Assembly (NCBI RefSeq): GCF_019967995.1
Contig: NZ_CP065377.1
Location: 806,001-870,000 of the forward strand
Length of the DNA stretch: 64,000 bases
Origin: Faecalibacterium prausnitzii
Lineage (GTDB): Bacteria > Bacillota > Clostridia > Oscillospirales > Ruminococcaceae
Reading direction: 5' to 3'
The notes beneath the pieces are model-generated. The model was given only the letters and a program-made list of their open reading frames with translations, did not search any database and was not told where the DNA came from. The position numbers and the translations under genes are program-made. Below are positions 34,840 to 59,306 of the stretch, piece after piece. Within the stretch, counting starts at the first letter, position 1. Each line of letters opens with the position of its first letter.

Positions 34840-35409
34840 ATGATATATAGGTTTACGGAAGTATTAAACGATCTTGTTAATTATTTTCTCCTTGGTGACA
34901 TTTTGTTGCTGGAGGACTGGAAGCAGGCAAATCATCTTTCAGATGATTTAGCGATGGAGTTTACCACAAACGAAAGCGGCGACAGGATATTTGCCGAAGG
35001 AATTGTAATCCCAATGACCGGTATTGAAAACTATCCCTATACCATATTGTTCAATCTCTCTGGTGATAGACCGGAGCTGTGCAAAGAAAGAAACCGATTG
35101 CAGCTTAGAAAAAGTGGCTATTCCCTCAAAGTAGATCATAATATGCTGATGCTTTTTACATGGCCAATATTGGAACAGTTTACGCCTGAAAAGGTGAAAG
35201 ATCTGATTTCTTACTATAGAGTGCATAAGAAGCCGATGATTGAGCTTGCAAATGGCTGGTATCATATCGAGATTTTGGGTGGAGAAACCTTGCAGGACGG
35301 GGACTATGAACCTACATTTGAGTTTGTGATACAACCAGCCACAAATGAAGAAGCCACCATAAATGCAGATATGAATTTTAGCTTTGAAATTACAAGCTCT
35401 GCTTATTAG
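34840..35409 (+). CDS. Array protein of unknown family, 189 residues
   Basis: ATG 34840 follows AAGGGAGG; an ATG four bases earlier gives only a four-codon frame. The product has FTEVLNDLVNYFLLGDILLL, a beta-rich middle (IVIPMTGIENYPYTILFNLS) and a C-terminal FEFVIQPATNEEATINADMN. The DNA is clearly more A+T-rich than the giant gene that follows. No family is recognised. Confidence 0.55.
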   Translation: MIYRFTEVLNDLVNYFLLGDILLLEDWKQANHLSDDLAMEFTTNESGDRIFAEGIVIPMTGIENYPYTILFNLSGDRPELCKERNRLQLRKSGYSLKVDHNMLMLFTWPILEQFTPEKVKDLISYYRVHKKPMIELANGWYHIEILGGETLQDGDYEPTFEFVIQPATNEEATINADMNFSFEITSSAY

Positions 35410-35450
35410 TGAAACCTATCCCTACCGAAGATGGAAAAGGAGATCATGAT

Positions 35451-38400
35451 ATGGATATTTTGAAGCAGTGCCAGAAGTGGCATGAGGAGGACAAACACCA
35501 GAAAATCGTTGACGCACTGGAGGCAATCTCTGCCGAGGAGCGTACCCCGGAAATGGATATGGAGCTGGCCCGCGCCTACAACAATCTGGCGGACTCCAGC
35601 GAGCCGGAGGGAAGGAAGCTGCTTCACCAGGCACTGGAACTGATGCAGTCCCATGAGGAGGAACTGGGAGATACTCATTCCTGGAATTTCCGTATGGGGT
35701 ATGCCTATTATTATCTGGATCAGGAGGGCCGCGCTCTGCGGCATTTTGAAAAAGCTCTGGAACTGCATCCCGGTGATGATCCTAAGCTCAACACCCGACA
35801 GGACATGGAGGAACTAATTGACTCGTGCAAAAAGGGTATTTCTCTGCCGCAGTTCTGGGAGTGCTTCCGGGAACGGACAGAGAACTGGTGGGAAACCTTT
35901 GCCGAGATGGAAGCAGAGCTGCGCCAGATGATGGACGAGGACAAAGATCACACCCGCGGTGCGGAGATCGTGGCCCAAATGGAGGAAACCCTGAATTTGG
36001 TTTTTGACGAGATTTCCTTCGAGATGGGCTTCAACGGCGAGAAGTACGAGCTGATCCTCACTCCGGAGGGTGACAAGGTCAAGCTGTTTGAGCTGGTCTA
36101 CTTCCAGAAGCACGCTCCCAAGGAGGTGCTGGAGCACTGGAACATCCTGGTGGGCCGTCAACCTTTTCAAAACATCGGTCTGCGAACCAATGATGGCTGG
36201 GAGATTTCCGGGGATGATGTGCAGATCTGGCTGGAGGAGCAGGGTGAAAACAGCTTCGCCATCTCCGCCTACTGTGAAAAGCTGCTGCCTATGCTCCGGG
36301 ATGAGGAAGGCCGGGCCTGGTGGATGCTCACCACCTTCACCGACCAAGTGCTGGGCGAGATCCCCCACATGAGATACATAGACAGCTTTGATGTGCTGGA
36401 GGAACCCAAGGCAGAGCCGTCCTTCCTCCTGTCCCAGCTGCCCGACAAACTGCGGGAGCAGGGCCTGGAGCTCTCCACCGACCCGGAAGCCTATCTGGAG
36501 AGCTACCTTGGTTACAAAATGGAACCCAAACAGGACCCGGACGCCGATTGGCGGCTGGATGTAATGGCCGGTTCCACCTGCTGTGTGCCGCTCATCAACG
36601 GCTATCTGAATGCCGACAATGATTTTATGGACGATCTCCATGCCGACGGCGCGGTGGCGGGCTTCTTCTGCTATCCCCTGGATACCCTGCGGGAGGAGGA
36701 AGGCAGTCAGAAAATTTTCGACTTCCGGGACAAGCTGGAGGAAGTGCTCACCGGCGGGGATGGTTCGGAAGTGCTCACTCTCACCGGCGGGGCTACCGGC
36801 CTCTACTGTGGCTATGTGGACTTCATCGCCTGGGACATCCAAGAGGCGCTGAACATGGCGAAAGAGTTCTTTGAAGGCACGGACATCCCATGGGCCATCT
36901 TCCACACCTTCCGCCGTGAAGCCGGTTCTGTATCCCTAAAGCAACAAGATGATGGGACAGAAACTGAGAATCAGGATGACGAGTTGGACGAAACGCTGAC
37001 GGGCATGGACTATATTCCTTACACCCAACAGAACGCCGAAGTATTCTTCGCTCAGCTGGAGCAGTGGAACGACGAAGACGAGTACACCCGCTGTATCCAG
37101 GCACTGAATGCCATCCCGGAGAACTGGAGGAACTACCGCACCGCCTACGCCCTGGCCCGTGCACTGGAGAACTACGCCATCATCGGGGACCATGACGAAG
37201 GTACTTTGAAATCCAAGGGAGACAAAGCCCTTCTGAGGGCCATTGAGGTGCTGGAGTCCGTCCGGGAGGAAGGCCAGGACAAGGCGGAGTGGAATATGCG
37301 GATGGCCTATGGCTATCAGTATCTCTACGGCCAGGAGGAAAAGGCCATTCCCTACGCTCAGCGGTGGGCAGAGTTGGACCCGGAGGATGAAAATGCCCCG
37401 GCAGTAATTCGGGAGTGTAAGGCGGAGATCCGGAAACGCCAGCGCAGCCGGAAGAAGAAGGCCAAATTCGTGCCCGGTGATACTCCATTTGAGGGCTTCG
37501 ACCTCACCAACTTCTGGGATGATAATTGGTATGCACTGAAAGAATATGTCAGTGATCCGCCTTCCGATGAGCTGATTGCCAGCGTGGAGGAGGAACTGGG
37601 CTACAAGCTGCCCGCTGCCTACATCTGGCTGATGAAGCAGCACAACGGCGGCATTCCGGTGAACACCTGCTATCCCTGCGATGAACCTACCTGCTGGGCA
37701 GATGACCATGTGGCCATCACCGGCATTTTCGGCATCGGACGAGAAAAGAGCTGCTCCCTCTGTGGAGAGCTGGGCAGCCAGTTTATGATCGATGAGTGGG
37801 AGTATCCTGCCATCGGTGTGGCCATCTGCGACTGTCCAAGCGCCGGACACGATATGATTTTCCTGGACTACCGGGCTTGCGGTCCCCAGGGAGAGCCTGC
37901 GGTAGTCCATGTGGATCAGGAAAATGACTATAAAATTACCCATCTGGCAGATAGCTTTGAGGAATTTATCCGCGGACTGGAGCATGAATCCCTCTATGAT
38001 CCGGATGAAGATGCAGAGGGTCTTGAGGATGACGCCGACGAGGAGGAAACCGACCATAAGGGTTCCTTTGCCGGATCTGTGCTCCTCTCCAAAGCAGAGT
38101 GGGACAAGGAGCAGTTGATTCGAGATCTGCGGGAAGAATGGGGTATCGTAGATGAGGAGCCGGATGAGGGCGACGAAGATGTTGAGAACAGCGATGACGC
38201 TGTGGTAATGCGGGTCGGCAATATGATGCTGATCGTGACACTATTCCACGGTCACATCCCGGACAATGAAGCAGAGATCAACGCCGAAAACAACTATATG
38301 TGGCCAGAGGCCGTAGAGGTGGCCAAAGCGCACAAGGCCCATATCATGGTGGCTGTGTTGGGCGAGGAGGAAAAACTGCTGGAACGGGGTAAGCTGTTCA

Positions 38401-40811
38401 CTAAGGCGATGGCAGTGTGCTGCAAGCAGAAATATGCCACCGGTGTCTACACCAGCGGCGTGGTATTTGAGCCTCGTTTCTATGAGGGCCTTGCCGATAT
38501 GCTCAAAGAGGACGAACTGCCCATCTTCAACTGGGTTTGGTTCGGCCTGTACCGGAGCGAGGGGGGCCTAAACGGCTACACCTACGGCATGGATGTGTTT
38601 GGCAAGGAGGAAATGGAGGTGTTGAACACCGACGCTGAGCCGGAGGAACTGCGGGACTTTTTGGCCAGCCTTGCCTCCTATGTGCTGGCGTGTGATGTGA
38701 CACTGCAAGACGGCGAGACCATCGGTTTTTCTGCGGACGATAAGCACACCATCACCCGCAGCCCCGGCGTCTCCCTGCCGGAGGAACAGATGACCCTGAA
38801 GATCGGTTACGAGCCTATAAAGGGAGATCCGGAGGATGACAGCTGCGACCACTCAGACAATGATGACACGCAGGATGAGGAAGAATTCAGTAATCCCGAA
38901 GTCTACACCGAGGAGGAGATGGAAGCCGTCGAGGGGCACATTGAGCAGTATTTCGGCAAGTTCGAGAATGTGTTCCATGAGCTGGTTTCTCCCGACATCC
39001 ATGTGGACATCTGCGTGGTGCCGCCCTCTGAGGAGCGGGACTACTGCACCCTGGTCACCATGGGCATGGGCGCTCACCGGATGAATGTGCCGGAGGAACT
39101 GGCGGAATATAAGCTGGAGCGGGCGGAGCTGGCCATTGCCCTGCCTGCGGACTGGAAGCTGGATCAGGAGTCCATGAAAGACGAAAAGTGGTACTGGCCC
39201 ATCCGCCTGCTGAAATCCTTGGCCCGCCTTCCCATTGCCAGCGATACCTGGCTGGGCTTCGGCCATACCATGGACAATGAGGAGGATTTTGCAAAGGACA
39301 CAAAGCTGTGCGCCGCCATTCTGACTGGTCCCCAGGATACCGAAGATGGCAGCGAGGTCTGCACTCTGCCGGGCGGCGAGGAGGTCAACTTCTATCAGGT
39401 GATTCCTCTCTACCGGGATGAATTGGAATATAAGCTGGCCCATGACGCGGACGCCCTGCTGGGCAAAATGAACGGCATCAGCTTTGTGGTGGAGCCTGAT
39501 CGTCAGGATGCTATCACCCGTGGCACCCTTTCCAATGATGATTTTGACGGTGAGATGGACGATGCTTCCTATCATATCGAGAGCATTGAGGAGAAGGAAC
39601 TGCCTATTGACCCCATCAATGCTTATAACCACATGGCCATCTACCTGCGCTGGTGTATGGAGAACGACCTGATGGGCGAGGACTTCTTGAAAGAATACAG
39701 CGAAGTGACCAAACAGGTCAAAGCTGATCCTGCCAATGTGGATCTGAGGGAGTTTATCCGGGATGAGCTGGACGGCTGTCTGTTCTCTGTGCTGTTCAAT
39801 CAGCAAGGCCGTGCCTTTGCAGGCTATTACTACGGAGAGGGCGACAGCCCCTACTATCCTGCCGACATTGATGACTATGCCCTGAAATATTTTGGTCCGT
39901 CCCGATACCACTCCAATGAATTTCAACAGGAGGCATACTTATTCATCCCATTTGATGAGAAATACTATCAGACCATGGCTCAAGTGATTGAGGAACGCTT
40001 TGAAAACTGGCAGGGACAGGACTTCGACGAGGACACGCTGGAGCCTTCCGAGGTTGCTCAGGCCATCATGGAGTATCTGGACTGCGAGTGTACCTATTTC
40101 CCATCCATGGCAGATGATGACCCCATCATGTCGGCATACAGCTACGCCCAGCGGCTGGGGGTACGGGAGGGCTTTGTTCCCGTACTTATCCAGGCGGATG
40201 ATGAAACGCTGTTGGAATGTCTGGTAATGAACGCCGACCCGGAGCATGATGCGGACTGCTATGAATTTGACCTCAAAACGGTAGAGGAGTACCGGAAGAA
40301 GATGCTCTCCGCTCCCATCAAGGACGGAAAGGCGGTTTTGGAGGAATTGACCGGCCAGCGCAAGGAAGAAGCCGAGGACGATGATCTGGACTGGGAGGAG
40401 GAAGTCCTGGGCGAGATGGAGGGCGGAGAACCCAACGACCGCTTCGCAAACTATTGGAACGATGATACCGGAATGACATATCCGCTCATTCTGGCTAAAA
40501 TTCCGGTAAAGGACCCCTGGGAGATCTTCGCCTACCTGCCCTTTGGAAATTGGAATGAGTGTCCCGACACACCGGACCTGATGGCAGTGGCGAAATACTG
40601 GTTCGAGCAACATGGTGCCATCCCTGCCGCCATGAGCCACGATGAATTGGAGTTTGAACTTCCAACTCCGATCTCCAAGGAAAGAGCTATGGAGGTGGCT
40701 GTGGAGCAATATGGTTTCTGCCCAGATCTGGATCAGAATGAGGATGGAAGCATTGGCTCCTTGGCAGATGTCCTGTGGCAGTCCACCGTCTGGTATTTCT
40801 GGTGGGATTGA
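35451..40811 (+). CDS. Giant multi-domain polyimmunity-type protein
   Basis: ATG 35451 is eight bases after AAGGAG; the in-frame GTG at 35409 lacks a site. The 1,786 residues contain, in order: TPR (1-125); an unassigned module (140-500); second TPR (530-665); SUKH/SMI1-KNR4 (680-845, YALKEYVSDPPSDELIASVE, WLMKQHNGGIPV); DUF4261 (865-1120, LFTKAMAVCCKQKYATGVYT); suppressor-of-fused-like (1150-1355, DYCTLVTMGMGAHRMNVP); DUF7832-like (1385-1525, NHMAIYLRWCMENDLMGEDF); and DUF4253 (1670-1786, ending STVWYFWWD). Acidic linkers join them. Each named domain is known from single immunity proteins. No signal peptide is present, so it acts in the cytosol. It is probably a chain of toxin-neutralising or decoy domains. 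Confidence 0.8.
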   Translation: MDILKQCQKWHEEDKHQKIVDALEAISAEERTPEMDMELARAYNNLADSSEPEGRKLLHQALELMQSHEEELGDTHSWNFRMGYAYYYLDQEGRALRHFEKALELHPGDDPKLNTRQDMEELIDSCKKGISLPQFWECFRERTENWWETFAEMEAELRQMMDEDKDHTRGAEIVAQMEETLNLVFDEISFEMGFNGEKYELILTPEGDKVKLFELVYFQKHAPKEVLEHWNILVGRQPFQNIGLRTNDGWEISGDDVQIWLEEQGENSFAISAYCEKLLPMLRDEEGRAWWMLTTFTDQVLGEIPHMRYIDSFDVLEEPKAEPSFLLSQLPDKLREQGLELSTDPEAYLESYLGYKMEPKQDPDADWRLDVMAGSTCCVPLINGYLNADNDFMDDLHADGAVAGFFCYPLDTLREEEGSQKIFDFRDKLEEVLTGGDGSEVLTLTGGATGLYCGYVDFIAWDIQEALNMAKEFFEGTDIPWAIFHTFRREAGSVSLKQQDDGTETENQDDELDETLTGMDYIPYTQQNAEVFFAQLEQWNDEDEYTRCIQALNAIPENWRNYRTAYALARALENYAIIGDHDEGTLKSKGDKALLRAIEVLESVREEGQDKAEWNMRMAYGYQYLYGQEEKAIPYAQRWAELDPEDENAPAVIRECKAEIRKRQRSRKKKAKFVPGDTPFEGFDLTNFWDDNWYALKEYVSDPPSDELIASVEEELGYKLPAAYIWLMKQHNGGIPVNTCYPCDEPTCWADDHVAITGIFGIGREKSCSLCGELGSQFMIDEWEYPAIGVAICDCPSAGHDMIFLDYRACGPQGEPAVVHVDQENDYKITHLADSFEEFIRGLEHESLYDPDEDAEGLEDDADEEETDHKGSFAGSVLLSKAEWDKEQLIRDLREEWGIVDEEPDEGDEDVENSDDAVVMRVGNMMLIVTLFHGHIPDNEAEINAENNYMWPEAVEVAKAHKAHIMVAVLGEEEKLLERGKLFTKAMAVCCKQKYATGVYTSGVVFEPRFYEGLADMLKEDELPIFNWVWFGLYRSEGGLNGYTYGMDVFGKEEMEVLNTDAEPEELRDFLASLASYVLACDVTLQDGETIGFSADDKHTITRSPGVSLPEEQMTLKIGYEPIKGDPEDDSCDHSDNDDTQDEEEFSNPEVYTEEEMEAVEGHIEQYFGKFENVFHELVSPDIHVDICVVPPSEERDYCTLVTMGMGAHRMNVPEELAEYKLERAELAIALPADWKLDQESMKDEKWYWPIRLLKSLARLPIASDTWLGFGHTMDNEEDFAKDTKLCAAILTGPQDTEDGSEVCTLPGGEEVNFYQVIPLYRDELEYKLAHDADALLGKMNGISFVVEPDRQDAITRGTLSNDDFDGEMDDASYHIESIEEKELPIDPINAYNHMAIYLRWCMENDLMGEDFLKEYSEVTKQVKADPANVDLREFIRDELDGCLFSVLFNQQGRAFAGYYYGEGDSPYYPADIDDYALKYFGPSRYHSNEFQQEAYLFIPFDEKYYQTMAQVIEERFENWQGQDFDEDTLEPSEVAQAIMEYLDCECTYFPSMADDDPIMSAYSYAQRLGVREGFVPVLIQADDETLLECLVMNADPEHDADCYEFDLKTVEEYRKKMLSAPIKDGKAVLEELTGQRKEEAEDDDLDWEEEVLGEMEGGEPNDRFANYWNDDTGMTYPLILAKIPVKDPWEIFAYLPFGNWNECPDTPDLMAVAKYWFEQHGAIPAAMSHDELEFELPTPISKERAMEVAVEQYGFCPDLDQNEDGSIGSLADVLWQSTVWYFWWD

Positions 40812-44678: not shown

Positions 44679-45023
44679 GTGGAACAAAAACGGCCGGCAG
44701 ATATAATTCAGGAACTTCTGGACTACCTGTGGAACGGCCTGGGCCTGGAGGAAAAGGGCTGGAAGCGTCTGAAAAAGGGCGACTTCAAAAAGAAAATGAA
44801 AAACGGGCTGACCTATCAGATCTGGTTTGACCGGAGCCGCTACAACTACATAGACTACGAAATCGGCCATGGGAATGTGGAGGTGGGCTTCACAGGCATT
44901 GACGATGATATCCACGTCGGAGCGGTTCATCAGGTCTTTCAGGATGCCAAACTGCTTTTTGGTACCAGCAGACACCAGATTTTCATTATCTATCTTTTTG
45001 TATTAAGGTCTACAGCAATCTAA
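44679..45023 (+). CDS. Last array gene, probably 3'-truncated
   Basis: GTG 44679 is eight bases after AGGGGG. The first 90 codons encode a charged domain (IQELLDYLWNGLGLEEKGWK, MKNGLTYQIWFDRSRYNYID). The last 20 residues (IFIIYLFVLRSTAI) differ in character and lie in A+T-rich DNA, so the natural C-terminus seems lost at about 44960. It marks the right edge of the array. Confidence 0.5.
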   Translation: MEQKRPADIIQELLDYLWNGLGLEEKGWKRLKKGDFKKKMKNGLTYQIWFDRSRYNYIDYEIGHGNVEVGFTGIDDDIHVGAVHQVFQDAKLLFGTSRHQIFIIYLFVLRSTAI

Positions 45024-45047
45024 TCCCACGTTAAAACGAGAAAATGC

Positions 45048-45235
45048 TTAATTGTTCTCCTCAAAGTTCTCTACCTGTTCCATGACCTTTTTGAGAACTT
45101 CGGGGCTGTACTGCGGGGGATATCACGCTTTTCAAAGAACGAGCCGGAGTTGCGCGCAGCGCGCAGATAATCCCGGCAGTTAAACAAAATCTAATCAAGG
45201 TTGAGAGCTTTTTCTTCAGCCTTCGTCTTTGCCAT
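45048..45235 (-). pseudogene. Degraded gene fragment, HsdM-like N-terminus
   Basis: On the minus strand MAKTKAEEKALNLD is followed at once by TAG. The other frames then continue NCRDYLRAARNSGSFFEKRD and SPEVLKKVMEQVENFEENN. The first two pieces resemble the start of type I restriction methylase (HsdM) proteins. The frame breaks show it is dead. It may be the trace of a restriction system replaced by the cargo. Confidence 0.35.
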
Positions 45236-45301
45236 GGCGTTTTTCTCCAATCTGAAAATTACAAATTGCGGACAAAAAGGACGCATTGTTGTGGCAAGCA
45301 G

Positions 45302-45410
45302 TGCAAGCTGGTACCAACTTGCAATTTTTGAATCCGATTTCTAAAAATCAAATTCAAAATGCTTGTTGGGCTGTGCCCAAACCCCTTGTGTTCTGCATCC
45401 AGTGGATGCA
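45302..45410. other. Series of four dyads, function unknown
   Basis: In 109 bases lie TGCAAG-C-TGGTACCA-A-CTTGCA (45302-45323), TTGAAT...GATT/AATC...ATTCAA (45328-45357), TTGGGC-TGT-GCCCAA (45366-45380) and TGCATCC-AGT-GGATGCA (45394-45410). No gene overlaps them. Such clusters occur at transfer origins and at replication or protein-binding sites; which of these applies is open. Apart from this, the terminator and the NADAR promoter, 45236-45582 holds no gene. Confidence 0.55.
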
Positions 45411-45445
45411 GGCTGCACATTTTTGAAAAATGCTTTTTAATCTGA

Positions 45446-45475
45446 GTGCCGATGCCTGTGGTATCGGCACTTTTT
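45446..45475 (+). terminator. Terminator after the immunity array
   Basis: GTGCCGAT and ATCGGCAC pair around a 9-base loop and are followed by TTTTT. It is the first clear plus-strand terminator after the array and lies just before the NADAR-nuclease promoter. Confidence 0.8.
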
Positions 45476-45505
45476 GCACAGATGGATTCCCGGAAGCAGA
45501 AAATA

Positions 45506-45539
45506 GTGCTATGCAGCACATCCGGGATTGTGCTATACT
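45506..45539 (+). promoter_or_regulatory. Promoter with operator-like dyad for the NADAR-nuclease gene
   Basis: TGCTATACT (extended -10; TATACT at 45534-45539) is 44 bases before the start codon. GTGCT-ATGC-AGCAC (45506-45519) and a flanking TCCCGGA/TCCGGGA inverted repeat cover the -35 area, suggesting autoregulation or repression. Confidence 0.6.
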
Positions 45540-45582
45540 TGATTTACATAAACTTGTTTGTCCTAAAAAGTTGGAGGTGTTC

Positions 45583-47475
45583 ATGGCAACACGAACCATT
45601 TGTTTTCCCATATCCGGCTATCCCTATTGCAGAGAACAGCCGGTGACATTCACATGGATAAAAGGCAGCAAGCGGCAGAATATCCGTGCCGTCCATGATG
45701 CCGTCCATACAACAGACCCTGATGTTTCGATTCTGGAAGTCAGCTCTGCATCCGTTCAGCCGGAGGGTGAAGCTGTTTCTTCTCTGCGGCTTTTGCTGCA
45801 TCTGGATTCTGTTGCGCAGGATGTACCCATCAGCACGGTTTTTGAAGCCACCAAAGTGTTTGAACATGGTGGGCCATTCGCTGACCTTCTGACCTGTGAG
45901 CCACCCAAAGTCCATAAGGACACTCGGCTGCGAACCAGTGGAGAGCTGCTACGTTACTCTCTGGAAGGAAACGAGTATCCGACAGAGCCGTACATGGATT
46001 CGTTCTTTGAGTGGCTCTACTGCCGTGCGTTGAAGCAGTTCCCGGAAAAGGCGGAGCCGCTGAGCAGATATAATGCTTTTTCTGATATTGCTGCCGCAGC
46101 GGATTCTAAAAAGTATTATGGCGATTCCTCACGGGCGGCTGCGATTTATGTGGGACTTGCAGCGGCAGGAAAACTTTCGTGCATCGATTCCTATGAATTA
46201 TTTATTGCTGAGGTCTATACGGAGCCGAAACCTTTGCCCAAGTCTGGAAAATCTGAGGCTGCTTCAAAAATGACACCCGAAGTTTCTGCACCAGCAAAGG
46301 AGACTCCGGCAGACGAATTGCCGCAGCCCGATAACGCAAATGCGGAAGTGATTCCGGACACTGCGCAGATGGAGCATATCCTTGAGCTGCCCAAAGCGAC
46401 CTGTCTGCTTCTCTCTTTGGCAAAAAATGCTGGCCTTTCTGCAAATAGTTCCAGTGAGCTGACATATAAGGGAAAGGAATTCCTTCTTGACGCTTATCAG
46501 ATAGCGCTGAAAAATAAAACGCTCCAAATCAATATCCAAAAGAACAAAATCACATTTCCGATGGAGGAACCGGACAGCGGATTTCATGCAGTTGGTGTGT
46601 TGACCCGTTCGCCTGCTTGGGAATACGGATGGAAGTTTAACTATCTGACTGAGAATACATCCGGTGCAGAAAAGTCCGAAGTTAAAGAAAAAATCCCTCC
46701 GAAGCCTTTGACCGCATTGGAGCATCTGGAACGCTGTGGGTATAGAATCGTTCAGCAGGTCGTACCGAAAAAACTTCCGCCGATTGCCGTTCAGCGGATG
46801 GCATGGAAAACAGGCGAAGCTCTTTGCGACCCGGTAGTGGTGGATTTCTTGCAGTTTATTCGGACACATATGCAGAGTGACGGCTCTTTTTCGTTTCGTA
46901 TCCCAAAGGGTACTTCCAAGAATTCGTTTGCCACACTTTCGGAAATCGCTCAGACGTGGGATAAAATGGGACTTTTTGCATCCATTGTGATCTATCCGCA
47001 GAATATCGTCTATGAGCTTGCGCAAAATGAGACTGTCCGGCATTTCCTGAGCGGGAAGTGGCTGGAACTTTTTGTGGAGCATCAGGTTCAGCAGATTTTG
47101 AATCGCTATCAGGAGGAGCAGGGCGCAGAAGTTTCGCTTTGCTCCAATGTGATTCTTTCAGAAGCGGCATCCGCAGGGAGCACGCATGAACTGGATGTTG
47201 CGTTTTCCATCAACGGAAAATTCTTCTGGGTGGAAGCCAAATCGTCCAGCCGAAGCATTGATTATGGAAAATATGCTGCTCTGTGCGAAAAGCTGAAAGT
47301 AACCTCCGACCGACTGCTTTTGGTCAACAGCGATTTGTCCGTTGAGGAGTGTGAAGGCGTTTCTTACTTCTGGAATTATCGTGTTGCAAATTGTGCAACG
47401 ATTACGGGGGAATTGGAAAATATGGTTGCCAAACAAATTGAAACTGCCGGAAAAGCCGTTCCAAGTACAGACTGA
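45583..47475 (+). CDS. NADAR-like antitoxin domain fused to a PD-(D/E)XK nuclease-like domain
   Basis: ATG 45583 follows TTGGAGG. The N-terminal ~210 residues match the DarT1-associated NADAR antitoxin family: ICFPISGYPYCREQPVTFTW, STVFEATKVFEHGGPFADLL, FFEWLYCRALKQFPEKAE and YNAFSDIAA followed by AAAIYVGLAAAGK. NADAR proteins remove ADP-ribose from nucleobases. After a Pro/Glu-rich linker, winged-helix-like segments lead to THELDVAFSINGKFFWVEAK (about 533-552). This E-x-D...E-x-K pattern is that of Card1/DUF1887-type PD-(D/E)XK nucleases. No DarT toxin lies nearby. The 630-residue gene has its own promoter and terminators on both sides and is probably a stand-alone defence protein; function is inferred. 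Confidence 0.65.
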   Translation: MATRTICFPISGYPYCREQPVTFTWIKGSKRQNIRAVHDAVHTTDPDVSILEVSSASVQPEGEAVSSLRLLLHLDSVAQDVPISTVFEATKVFEHGGPFADLLTCEPPKVHKDTRLRTSGELLRYSLEGNEYPTEPYMDSFFEWLYCRALKQFPEKAEPLSRYNAFSDIAAAADSKKYYGDSSRAAAIYVGLAAAGKLSCIDSYELFIAEVYTEPKPLPKSGKSEAASKMTPEVSAPAKETPADELPQPDNANAEVIPDTAQMEHILELPKATCLLLSLAKNAGLSANSSSELTYKGKEFLLDAYQIALKNKTLQINIQKNKITFPMEEPDSGFHAVGVLTRSPAWEYGWKFNYLTENTSGAEKSEVKEKIPPKPLTALEHLERCGYRIVQQVVPKKLPPIAVQRMAWKTGEALCDPVVVDFLQFIRTHMQSDGSFSFRIPKGTSKNSFATLSEIAQTWDKMGLFASIVIYPQNIVYELAQNETVRHFLSGKWLELFVEHQVQQILNRYQEEQGAEVSLCSNVILSEAASAGSTHELDVAFSINGKFFWVEAKSSSRSIDYGKYAALCEKLKVTSDRLLLVNSDLSVEECEGVSYFWNYRVANCATITGELENMVAKQIETAGKAVPSTD

Positions 47476-47492
47476 GCAATAAGCAAAAAAGA

Positions 47493-47532
47493 CCCTGAGA
47501 ACCCTGCCGGATAAGCGGCAAAGTTCTCAGGG
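47493..47532. terminator. Bidirectional terminator between NADAR-nuclease and relaxase genes
   Basis: CCCTGAGAAC and GTTCTCAGGG (10 bp) enclose CCG/CGG pairs, with an A-run on the left and GTTTT on the right. The two genes converge on it. Confidence 0.85.
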
Positions 47533-47538
47533 ACTGTT

Positions 47539-48921
47539 TTATCGGATCTGCTCGACTTGCTTGGAGTCCTTTTCCTCCGCAAAGAACAGTTCCACATTCT
47601 TCTGTGCTTTTACGATTTCCTGCATCTCATCCCGTGTCTTTCGGTACTCTGGGTAGAGTGCTTTTTTCTTGGTGAGCAAAGCCGAATACTCTGCATTCAG
47701 GTCTTTCACTTTGGGCAGCTTTTTCAGGCCGGATTCATTGAAAGCGGCTTTCGCCGTCTTATGCAGCGTGACTTCTTCCCGGTGCGCTTCCAAAAATTTG
47801 GAGCTGTACCCGGATTTGCGGTAAGCATCGTATACAGGCCGGGTCTTGGCATAGTTGACGATGTGCGCCCGGAGGACGGCGATTTCTGCCATACGCTTCT
47901 CGGCGGCCTTGATGGAATCGCCCAGTTTGTGATAGCGAGAAAGTGCAGCATCAGCACGCTCTTTCAGGTCATCCGCACTGCCGATTTTCTGCTCCTGCAA
48001 AAAAATCAGCGTTTTGGACATCTCTTTCAAGTTGTACTTCTTCGCCCAGCGTTCGTAGCCGCCACCTTTGCCCTCGGCAAGTTTTGCTTGAATGTCAACC
48101 AGCAACTGGAACGGCTGCTCTTTGGGAGGTTGCTTCTGATGTGGGCGGTGTTCGGCTTTTCCGGCAATGACTGCTTTGATTTCATCCTCGCTGTACCCGG
48201 CACCCAGTGTCTTTAACCGGATAAAGCGTTTCTGCCGTGCGCCTTTAACGGAAGTGTATTTGCCGCGTTTGATTTCATAGCCCTGCTGTTCCAGCTTTTG
48301 CAGAAAATCTTCGTAGTCGGTGGGCTTCTGCTGCAAAATCTCGTCGATTACACTGCACAGCCGGTCGCGGTTGCTCTCCTTTGGTGGGTAAGTGATGCGC
48401 TTCTGCCGTTCCCGGTAAGGCTTCTTTTCAATGACTGACAGCTGATGCTCCAGACAAATCAGGTCGCTCAACCGCTGCACTGCCAGACCGGAAAAGAAAA
48501 AATCCCGGAATTTTCTTGTGCCGTCCAGAGTGGTCGAGTTATAGATAATGTGATTGTGAATGTGTTCCCGATCGGTATGCGTTGCAACGATAAAAGCGTG
48601 TTTGCCTTTCAGAAACCGGGAGGCCAACTCATAACCGATGCGGTTTGCTTCTTCAGCCGTAATTTCACCAGGTCGGAAAGATTGCCGTATCTGATAGGCG
48701 ATAATGTTACTTTTTTGGCTGCGCCCGGTGGCCTGCTCGTACAGCTTTTTTGTGAGCATGAACTCCTCGTCCACAGTAAGCGGGCTGCATTGATAGCTGC
48801 TGACAAGTTCGCCTTTTTCAGTCTTGTCGGGATTCTGCGCATAATCAGTGCGGTCTTTCAGGCAGGCGGCGATAGATTTTCCTTTGTGCTGATGCAGTGC
48901 GATCAGACGAGTAGCAGCCAG
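47539..48921 (-). CDS. MobP-like relaxase, probable CTG start
   Basis: The 460-residue protein nicks the transfer origin and pilots the strand into the recipient. The N-terminal reading AATRLIALHQHKGKSIAACL, then DRTDYAQNPDKTEKGELVSS, is the standard relaxase start. Upstream of it the first in-frame stop is part of the AGGAGGTGA site and no ATG, GTG or TTG is available; CTG at 48921 has ideal spacing. The metal motif is HTDREHIHNHIIYN (HxDxxHxH). The C-terminal half is a coiled coil. It lies downstream of MobC and the CD1845-like gene on the same strand. Confidence 0.85.
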   Translation of the reverse strand: MAATRLIALHQHKGKSIAACLKDRTDYAQNPDKTEKGELVSSYQCSPLTVDEEFMLTKKLYEQATGRSQKSNIIAYQIRQSFRPGEITAEEANRIGYELASRFLKGKHAFIVATHTDREHIHNHIIYNSTTLDGTRKFRDFFFSGLAVQRLSDLICLEHQLSVIEKKPYRERQKRITYPPKESNRDRLCSVIDEILQQKPTDYEDFLQKLEQQGYEIKRGKYTSVKGARQKRFIRLKTLGAGYSEDEIKAVIAGKAEHRPHQKQPPKEQPFQLLVDIQAKLAEGKGGGYERWAKKYNLKEMSKTLIFLQEQKIGSADDLKERADAALSRYHKLGDSIKAAEKRMAEIAVLRAHIVNYAKTRPVYDAYRKSGYSSKFLEAHREEVTLHKTAKAAFNESGLKKLPKVKDLNAEYSALLTKKKALYPEYRKTRDEMQEIVKAQKNVELFFAEEKDSKQVEQIR

Positions 48922-49364: not shown

Positions 49365-49697
49365 TTAGAGTTCGGTGAGTTTGGCGAGAAGTTGCTTGCC
49401 AATAGCTATCAGCTCATCCAACCGACTACGCAAGTCCTCTAAATCGGCGGCATAGAGCTGCCCGCTTTCACTGGCCCGTTTCGCCACCTGATTCAGGTTG
49501 TTGCTGCAATTCTGAAGAAGGTACGCCATCCGACGCAGCTGTGGTAAATCAAGATTCAGGCAGTAACCATCCAGAGCCATTTTTCGCAGATAAGAGCCAA
49601 TGCTCAAAATACCGCAACTTTCCATCTTCTGACGAATGCGTTCCAGTTCGACTTTGCTGACACGAAAATGGATCTGCTGGTCACGGTGCTCCGTCAC
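49365..49697 (-). CDS. mobC: MobC relaxosome protein
   Basis: The 110-residue product has the ribbon-helix-helix-like start (IHFRVSKVELERIRQKMESC), the LRKMALDGYCLNLDLPQLRR segment and the NNLNQVAKRASESGQLYAAD block typical of MobC. MobC binds at oriT and helps the relaxase open the DNA. It overlaps the end of the giant helicase gene by four bases (ATGA), so it is translationally coupled. Confidence 0.9.
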   Translation of the reverse strand: MTEHRDQQIHFRVSKVELERIRQKMESCGILSIGSYLRKMALDGYCLNLDLPQLRRMAYLLQNCSNNLNQVAKRASESGQLYAADLEDLRSRLDELIAIGKQLLAKLTEL

Positions 49698-57593: not shown

Positions 57594-58529
57594 CTACAGT
57601 TCGGTTTCCACCGCAAGCTGCTCCTGTTTTTCTTTTTCGTCAGCGATTTGGACGTCAATATCTTCGCGCATCTTTTTCAGAAGTGCGAGGACTCGCTTGA
57701 TTTGACCCTTGGTGTTTTCCACCCTGCTCTGTGCCTGATTGATGTGATCCAGAACTGCTCAGTCTGCAAAGAGGCCGTCAAAGAAGAAATCCGCAAATTT
57801 CAAAAAGCTGTCCACCGTAACCTGAAGGTCTGCGGTGATTTCAACATCGGAAAGTTCAGTTTTGAACCGCCGCAGTTCCACTTGGAGCTGTTCGATTTGT
57901 TCCTGTGCATCGTCCAGTTCCTCATACTTGGCAAGATCGGCCATCAAACCGCCGCCCATTACGTCCCATGTACTCCAGCCCTCGGCTTTGTCGAGGGTTT
58001 CCAGAACTTCATTGACCGTATGCAGGGCGGTCTTTCCGGCGTTGATAGCTTCCAGCAGCTCCCGTTTTTGGACTTTCAGCGCGGCAATACGGCTTTCGCT
58101 TTCCGCAACCTGCTGTGCGGCAGGGTGGGCAGATGCTTTGATGCTTTTGATTTTTTCGGAAAGAGCAGCTTGATACTGCCTTTCGCAATCGGACAGCCGT
58201 GCCAACCTATTTTGAATTTGTGCTAAATCAGCATCAACGGAAGAAAGGTCATGGAGAGCCGCATCGTACTTGACACGGGCTGCATAGGCTTCCTGCCGTT
58301 CTTTGTCCAGCTTTTCATCCATCTTTCCGATGACCTGATAGAAAAATGCGGCAAGGCTGTGTCCCTCCAGACGGTCCACATCAGCCTGCTCTGCCAGCTT
58401 GGATTTTTCCAGCATTTTCAGGCGGTCAGCAAGCGTATCTCTCTGGGCGGTCAGTTCTTTCTGCTTTGCTTCGCAGCTTTTCTTTTCAGCGACCTGCTGC
58501 CAAAGCTCTTTCAACGTAGAATCATTCAT
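57594..58529 (-). pseudogene. Coiled-coil protein gene split by an in-frame TGA
   Basis: From ATG 58529 the frame encodes 256 residues of charged coiled coil (LWQQVAEKKSCEAKQKELTA, ALKVQKRELLEAINAGKTAL), ending FFFDGLFAD at TGA 57759-57761. The same frame then continues without break for 54 codons (AVLDHINQAQSRVENTKGQI, KRVLALLKKMREDIDVQIAD) to TAG at 57594. One TGG-to-TGA change would explain it. The shortened 256-residue protein may still be made. It lies directly after the AAA ATPase gene and may be its partner. Confidence 0.65.
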
Positions 58530-58550
58530 ATGGAATGTCCTTTCCCGGAA

Positions 58551-59273
58551 TTACGTTTCTTCATTCAGAAGCTGGTTCAAAAAATGCTGCCGATTATTTA
58601 CAAATGTTTTGGTGATAACGTAGCTGTCCGTATCTTCGTACTGACAAGGATGAATCGTGCCATTGTCGAAGCTAAAAATCTCAGCATCAGGCATTCCGAG
58701 GAGAATGGGTGAATGTGATACGATAATGAATTGCGCCCCTTCTTGGGCACACCGATAAATGTTGATCAGTAACGTGAGCTGCCGCTGCGGGGATAAAGCG
58801 GCTTCCGGCTCGTCAAAAATATAGACTCCATCTGCACCCATGTAGTCCTGCGCAATGGCGAGGAAACTTTCACCGTGTGATTTTTGGTGATAGCCTTTGG
58901 AGGGATGATCGTCATCGGAATAGTCGATTTCCTTGGTGGCTACATTATAGAAACTCTCTGCTCGGAGAAAATACCCGAACTTTGGTCTGCGATACCCCTT
59001 GGAAATCGTCATAGCCTCACATAGTTCCGAATGGGAGTTGTATGTGGAAAATGAATAGTTCTTCGTTCCACCCTCTGCGTTGAAGCCGTAAGCAACAGCG
59101 ATTGCTTCCAGAAGCGTAGATTTTCCACTTCCATTTTCGCCAACAAAGAACGTAATGGGCTTATGGAATGTAAAAGTGTCGATTCCACTGATGGCAGGAA
59201 TCTGACGAACATAATTGTATGGGCGAACTCTGTTCCAGTCGATGGTCAGCCCTTGGATAAACAGATCGTTCAT
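58551..59273 (-). CDS. Stand-alone AAA/ABC-type ATPase
   Basis: The 240-residue product has Walker A in ITFFVGENGSGKSTLLEAIA, a signature-like SHGESFLAIAQ, Walker B in GVYIFDEPEAALSPQRQL and a His switch in FIIVSHSPIL. This is the layout of small SMC/ABC-like ATPases without membrane parts. ATG 59273 follows GGAG. Such ATPases often act in DNA repair or phage defence together with a partner protein, here possibly the coiled-coil product. The partner is inferred from position. Confidence 0.8.
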   Translation of the reverse strand: MNDLFIQGLTIDWNRVRPYNYVRQIPAISGIDTFTFHKPITFFVGENGSGKSTLLEAIAVAYGFNAEGGTKNYSFSTYNSHSELCEAMTISKGYRRPKFGYFLRAESFYNVATKEIDYSDDDHPSKGYHQKSHGESFLAIAQDYMGADGVYIFDEPEAALSPQRQLTLLINIYRCAQEGAQFIIVSHSPILLGMPDAEIFSFDNGTIHPCQYEDTDSYVITKTFVNNRQHFLNQLLNEET

Positions 59274-59306
59274 ACAGCACTCCATACTATATAATGTAAG
59301 AAACAC

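Follow-up and report, generated by a model that had tools for sequence, protein, structure and literature searches.

A remodelled NADAR domain joined to a Card1/Can2-type nuclease in Faecalibacterium prausnitzii: a candidate ligand-gated sensor-effector

What does a NADAR domain do when it is fused to a nuclease and no DarT toxin gene lies beside it? This question is raised by a gene in a 64,000-nucleotide stretch of Faecalibacterium prausnitzii DNA (contig NZ_CP065377.1, positions 806,001 to 870,000), hereafter called the window; window positions are used throughout. The Card1/Can2-type nucleases that the C-terminal part of its product resembles are known as CARF-gated effectors of CRISPR signalling, and here the same module is combined with an ADP-ribosyl hydrolase fold. 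At the place that CARF takes in these relatives, we found a remodelled NADAR domain and a middle domain of about 100 residues.

Domain organization of the fusion protein

The gene and its parts are arranged as follows:
45583..47475, forward strand: gene for the NADAR / winged-helix / PD-(D/E)XK protein, 630 residues
45583..46218, forward strand: NADAR-DarT1 domain, remodelled, residues 1-212 (S84, E88, K91, H111, D168)
46219..46356, forward strand: linker, residues 213-258, of variable length within the family; predicted local distance difference test score below 50 at residues 217-255
46357..46656, forward strand: middle domain, about 100 residues
46678..47022, forward strand: winged-helix-like domain, residues 366-480, matching the part of Can2/Card1 N-terminal to the nuclease
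47023..47448, forward strand: Card1/Can2-type PD-(D/E)XK nuclease, residues 481-622 (E495, E536, D538, E551, K553)

This anatomy is well supported, as is the remodelling of the NADAR active site described below. Residues 2-208 match the Pfam family NADAR-DarT1 (PF22397) at 155.7 bits, against a cut-off of 27, and the nearest solved structure by sequence is the G. lovleyi NADAR 8bat (expectation value, E, 2.6e-24), and the domain has the NADAR fold. For the C-terminal part, the best CARF-PD-(D/E)XK model in PADLOC covers residues 481-572 (E 1.4e-9), and the solved structures matched are those of the CARF nuclease Cdn1 (8z4i, E 0.013) and VC1899 (1xmx, E 0.014). Twelve PADLOC families match the protein at E up to 1, and their best stretches all begin at or beyond residue 433. 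Pfam Card1_endonuc (PF09002) reaches 19.9 bits at residues 483-560, below its cut-off of 26.4, and is matched by 13 of 15 family members at E up to 1. The nuclease and its winged helix belong, by computation, to the Card1/Can2 type, and the catalytic residues are intact. The fusion proposed in an earlier, sequence-only reading of this DNA is thus real, and the link to Card1 that it drew holds.

Card1, Can2, Cdn1 and VC1899, nucleases of type III CRISPR systems, have CARF domains, whereas no CARF sensor was recognised here: the N-terminal part is NADAR, and a much altered CARF hidden in the middle domain is unlikely. PMC11543638 and PMC11125620 describe NADARs, or bacterial ones, as mostly stand-alone, and PMC9503650 predicts possible action on small ADP-ribose derivatives and places NADARs in loci with restriction-type nucleases. 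Among the open-access papers listed by our searches, judged by title and abstract, none reports a NADAR-Card1-type nuclease architecture, and our claim of novelty extends as far as those searches.

Remodelling of the NADAR active site

For the active site, we aligned 14 fused NADARs (the window protein, two close and 11 distant relatives; other near-identical matches were omitted) with 17 controls. Eight controls are plasmid NADARs lying directly 3' of a DarT-type gene, drawn from 28 plasmid records that match the NADAR part; the preceding gene is annotated as DarT in six cases, as DUF4433 in one and as hypothetical in one, and we take the last two to be DarT given their position. The remaining nine are seven clostridial NADAR proteins together with P0063 and P0064. 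Four extra clostridial controls (L019, L039-L041), their neighbours unchecked, were included as well, while L042, which carries stops, was set aside. Residue numbers E88, K95, K115 and D171 are those of E. coli C7 NADAR, equivalent to S84, K91, H111 and D168 of the window protein.

All four residues are present in 17/17 controls, and in 21/21 when the clostridial additions are counted. The fused sequences show two distinct behaviours. The E88 position is occupied by Ser in 3 of the 14 rows and Gly in 10, with one gap, and the K115 position by His (3), Leu (2), Gln (4) or Gly (2), with three gaps. The K95 position holds Lys in 12 rows, Arg in one and Glu in one; D171 is Asp in 13 and Cys in one. 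According to PMC11543638, E88 and K115 are necessary against DarT1 in cells; in vitro, the enzyme can do without K115 and, judged by E88A, nearly without E88, E88Q is inactive, and K95 and D171 are needed for hydrolysis. By alignment, then, the fused family has mostly retained the residue set required in vitro and lost the additional set required in cells. We read this pattern as that of a domain in which an ADP-ribose ligand would still be bound, and maybe slowly cleaved, but which no longer has a DarT1 antitoxin role. With the counterparts of E88 and K115 missing from 14/14 sequences, ordinary ADP-ribose removal is unlikely to be its main job. Three residues before K95, 12/14 fused rows carry Glu (residue 88 in the window protein's own numbering) where 17/17 controls carry Gln; this glutamate, one helical turn from the lost one, might stand in for it.

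The changes extend beyond these positions. In the fused NADARs the N-terminal extension has an SQKQK loop that is four residues shorter, and the Lys of the EVSSKS motif is replaced by Ala in the 11 fused sequences examined. With P0063 and P0064 omitted, 14 or more of the 15 controls agree in 48 NADAR columns; 21 of these are retained in 10 or more of the 11 fused rows (P0075, P0076 and P0080 omitted). Compared with the NADAR of the DarTG1 antitoxin (PF22397; G. lovleyi 8bat, E. coli C7), the window NADAR differs in being nuclease-fused and without a DarT partner, in lacking the E88 and K115 equivalents, and in its shortened loop.

Two groups of controls share some features with the window protein. 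The clostridial NADARs L011-L015, L017 and L018 resemble the window protein in being NADAR-DarT1-like with no DarT seen alongside (loci of about 3.5 kb, judged by eye with no scan); unlike it, they keep the four key residues and have no nuclease. Two of them (L017:1282-2142 and L018:1498-2343) instead carry a C-terminal extension of about 65 residues (GDxxxHKxxGxGxV) that looks Tudor-like by eye. P0063 and P0064 resemble the window protein in joining NADAR-DarT1 to a possible second effector; unlike it, they keep the four key residues, and the effector is not PD-(D/E)XK. Their C-terminal part has an R-N-x3-H motif and also occurs as a stand-alone plasmid protein of about 193 residues (L032, L033). 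In P0064 it gives weak matches to Csx1/Csm6 CARF-HEPN proteins (E 7e-4), and in P0063 none at 0.01; the pair is possibly a NADAR-HEPN counterpart.

Family, distribution and selection

A full-length protein search returned 64 proteins and a C-terminal profile search 74, in overlapping sets, each search having scored only the approximately 8000 candidates sharing most words. Identity to the window protein is at least 88% in 59 of the 64; the distant members of the alignment show 41-51% over their length, and P0062, present as the C-terminal part only, 68%. Some clusters represent thousands of sequences (P0001, 3613; P0033, 8318). Residues 1-212 alone as query retrieved 52 proteins and no further fusion partner. 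Within the genus, 5 of the 31 genomes were found to have the gene, counting the window genome. The architecture, which the sequence-only reading had suggested seeking in other genomes, persists across the family. A scan of genome contigs gave three loci, in Faecalibacterium longum, F. prausnitzii ATCC 27768 and sp. I4-1-79. Among 396 genomes of the host's family, seven match at E 0.001, only the window genome over the full length; five of the others cover the NADAR part only, and L016 covers 51 residues inside a transporter-like ATPase reading frame, which we took as chance.

Purifying selection acts on the whole gene: the ratio of nonsynonymous to synonymous substitution rates (dN/dS) is 0.143 across five Faecalibacterium orthologues, with pooled values of 0.13 for the NADAR domain, 0.29 for the linker, 0.20 for the middle domain, 0.07 for the winged helix and 0.09 for the nuclease. 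The fused NADARs form a single group apart from the DarT-linked ones (support 100/100, and present in 200/200 bootstrap trees); P0080 has a long branch, and its placement is unsure. A frame or assembly artefact was ruled out by full-length relatives at 42-97% identity and the dN/dS of 0.14. We also rejected a phage gene (0 relatives confirmed among 48 candidate viral-contig stretches; no phage record by tblastn) and a plasmid gene (no match by megablast; tblastn against plasmids matches the NADAR part only, in 28 records).

Proposed function and alternatives

How might such a protein work? The best single explanation, to which we give an even chance, is that it would be a stand-alone ligand-gated sensor-effector nuclease, carried by a conjugative element next to its relaxase. 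In this scheme the ligand would be guanine that bears ADP-ribose within nucleic acid, or a related ADP-ribose-type compound set free in NAD+ metabolism, made by a phage, by the toxin of a rival or by an element entering the cell; once the remodelled NADAR had bound it, the nuclease would open and cut DNA, RNA or both, stopping the invader or the cell. Since the counterparts of K95 and D171 persist, the NADAR could then slowly hydrolyse its ligand and so reset the switch. The ligand, the gating and the defence role are what we infer. That the protein senses and cuts, as the sequence-only reading had it, is the most economical reading. Of its other points, the NADAR-nuclease fusion, the connection with Card1 and the lack of a DarT partner are supported. 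On the partner the earlier observation was correct: DarT has no match in the window genome, nor in the vicinity of the gene in four relatives. Genome-wide, three of these four also show no match, and the fourth, G017, carries one about 2 Mb from the gene, beside its own macrodomain-like reading frame (named by eye).

Several observations weigh against the sensor-effector interpretation. The whole-protein model (predicted template-modelling score 0.44) does not fix the domain arrangement. Sixteen of the 48 conserved NADAR columns are gone from 11/11 fused rows, so that the ligand may be quite different. E88Q is inactive in vitro, unlike E88A, and the effect of Ser or Gly at this position is therefore uncertain. 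In addition, P0080 is without most of the NADAR core, and in P0075 and P0076 a stretch of about 20 residues that takes in the K115 position is missing; the nuclease persists in all three. Sensing through an ADP-ribose pocket is thus not universal, and with pocket deletions in 3 of 14 sequences the earlier proposal of ADP-ribose sensing is weakened as a function of the whole family. Searches of the window genome found no match to TIR_2 and, in contrast to Card1/Can2-type systems, none to Csm1-type Cas10 (Cmr2 and other Cas10 types were not searched), so that the genome offers no evident source of a signal. It may also be the middle domain, and not the NADAR, that does the sensing. Finally, the DefensePredictor study (PMC13092281) mentions NADAR-domain proteins, structurally diverse, among its defence proteins, and a protein like the present one may be among them.

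The deletions and the 16 lost columns favour another view: the NADAR would be an inherited part, structural or for dimerisation, that binds no ligand, and the nuclease would be triggered by a phage protein or by the middle domain. We consider this unlikely, since the NADAR domain evolves at a dN/dS of only 0.13 in Faecalibacterium and the pocket residues equivalent to K95 and D171 persist in 12/14 and 13/14 sequences. Could the NADAR instead read modified guanine directly in the DNA of an invader and the nuclease cut this DNA in cis, as modification-dependent, type IV-like restriction with no diffusible signal? This is doubtful: the SQKQK loop is shortened, the EVSSKS lysine is replaced, and the closest nucleases, Can2 and Card1, are ligand-gated, Can2 degrading DNA and RNA non-specifically.

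A repair or immunity enzyme, which would locate guanine ADP-ribosylated by a rival's toxin and excise the damaged strand, would suit the run of immunity-type families that the window gene adjoins (DUF4304, DUF3885, UPF0167 and SF0329, whose role in immunity we presume), and some NADARs do protect against guanine ADP-ribosylation. However, this array has no match around the gene in four relatives (10-20 kb per side), both residues for DarT1 rescue are lost, and no Card1-type nuclease is known to act in repair; we judge this improbable. An ordinary DarT1-type antitoxin with an incidental nuclease has in its favour a score far over the PF22397 cut-off, but is very improbable and already contradicted. 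We rejected this identity on the absence of a nearby DarT and the loss of E88 and K115 in all fused rows, and the fused NADARs also cluster apart from DarT-linked ones; the label "DarT1-type" given earlier was not borne out as regards an antitoxin role.

Promoter region and genomic neighbourhood

The features flanking the gene are:
45355..45422, forward strand: hairpin-rich element, recurring at three other sites in the genome (88, 78 and 73% identity)
45445..45475, forward strand: hairpin followed by a T run, terminator-like, from RNA folding and sequence
45531..45579, forward strand: likely extended -10 TGCTATACT at 45531-45539 and ribosome-binding site GGAGGTG at 45573-45579, read from sequence
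47539..48774, reverse strand: MobA/VirD2-type relaxase of a conjugative element (PF03432, 101.3 bits), convergent with the gene
49365..49697, reverse strand: NikA/MobC-like mobilisation protein
57759..59306, reverse strand: LmuB-like match (256 residues, 2e-7) and AAA/ABC ATPase (251 residues, Pfam AAA_21) with AriA as best PADLOC match (2.3e-17)

The -10-like and ribosome-binding sequences are found at 4/4 other Faecalibacterium loci. A promoter scan gave no support for the likely extended -10 at 45531-45539, a consensus scan had no entry for the terminator-like hairpin, and no RNA family matched within 45000-47700 at E up to 1.

On the right, relaxase, NikA/MobC, a 2336-residue helicase/methylase-like protein and a topoisomerase, all on the reverse strand, mark a conjugative element. 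Each other copy of the hairpin-rich element adjoins a reading frame that resembles, by eye, a relaxase C-terminus in the same relative orientation. The gap between them is about 75 bp at one site and about 1.15 kb at two; the longer gaps carry an XRE-type regulator and a conserved reading frame of about 175 residues (L046:1582-2567, L047:520-1503), and the window gap carries the NADAR-nuclease gene, suggesting that it may serve as a cargo slot. The gene adjoins a relaxase in G013 and G029, as in the window, and stands without one in G014 and G017; one chromosomal site and its upstream flank are common to G014, G017 and G029. Position 45291, where similarity to four relatives ends, was dropped as the end of the element, L045 from the same genome matching past it.

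To the left lies a run of genes including immunity-type families. Between 24000 and 45000, immunity-type and unknown genes (DUF6892, DUF7738, UPF0167, DUF4304, SF0329, DUF3885, ankyrin) accompany an 1800-residue reading frame at 35409-40811. Among ten neighbours scanned with PADLOC, only the LmuB-like reading frame and the AriA-matching ATPase pass 1e-5, the latter match being generic (74 ATPase families match the same ATPase); the two are possibly a compact two-gene second defence module. Separately, a segment of about 1.4 kb between inverted repeats of 26-35 bp lies in one orientation in L022 (1040-2510) and in the opposite one in L024 (1037-2508) and L028 (1103-2557). It contains a recombinase-like reading frame, is flanked by helicase-like and sugar-transferase-like ones, and is possibly a phase-variation switch.

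Implications

A worn guanine-ADP-ribose-removing enzyme in the place of the usual sensor suggests a new type of single-protein alarm. More tentatively, NADAR may be a new class of immune sensor replacing CARF, yielding a Card1-type nuclease gated by ADP-ribosylation or ADP-ribose, with possible signal clearance and conjugative spread in gut Faecalibacterium. Predictions follow readily from the way in which the family has separated residues needed in vitro from those needed in cells, and the role of non-DarT NADARs would become directly testable with one protein. If the proposal is true, an eraser of guanine modification would have been turned into a reader and alarm, NADAR would, with the NADAR-HEPN-like fusion in parallel, become a plug-in sensor of general use, and nucleotide second messengers would be joined with nucleic-acid ADP-ribosylation, two separate lines of bacterial immunity.
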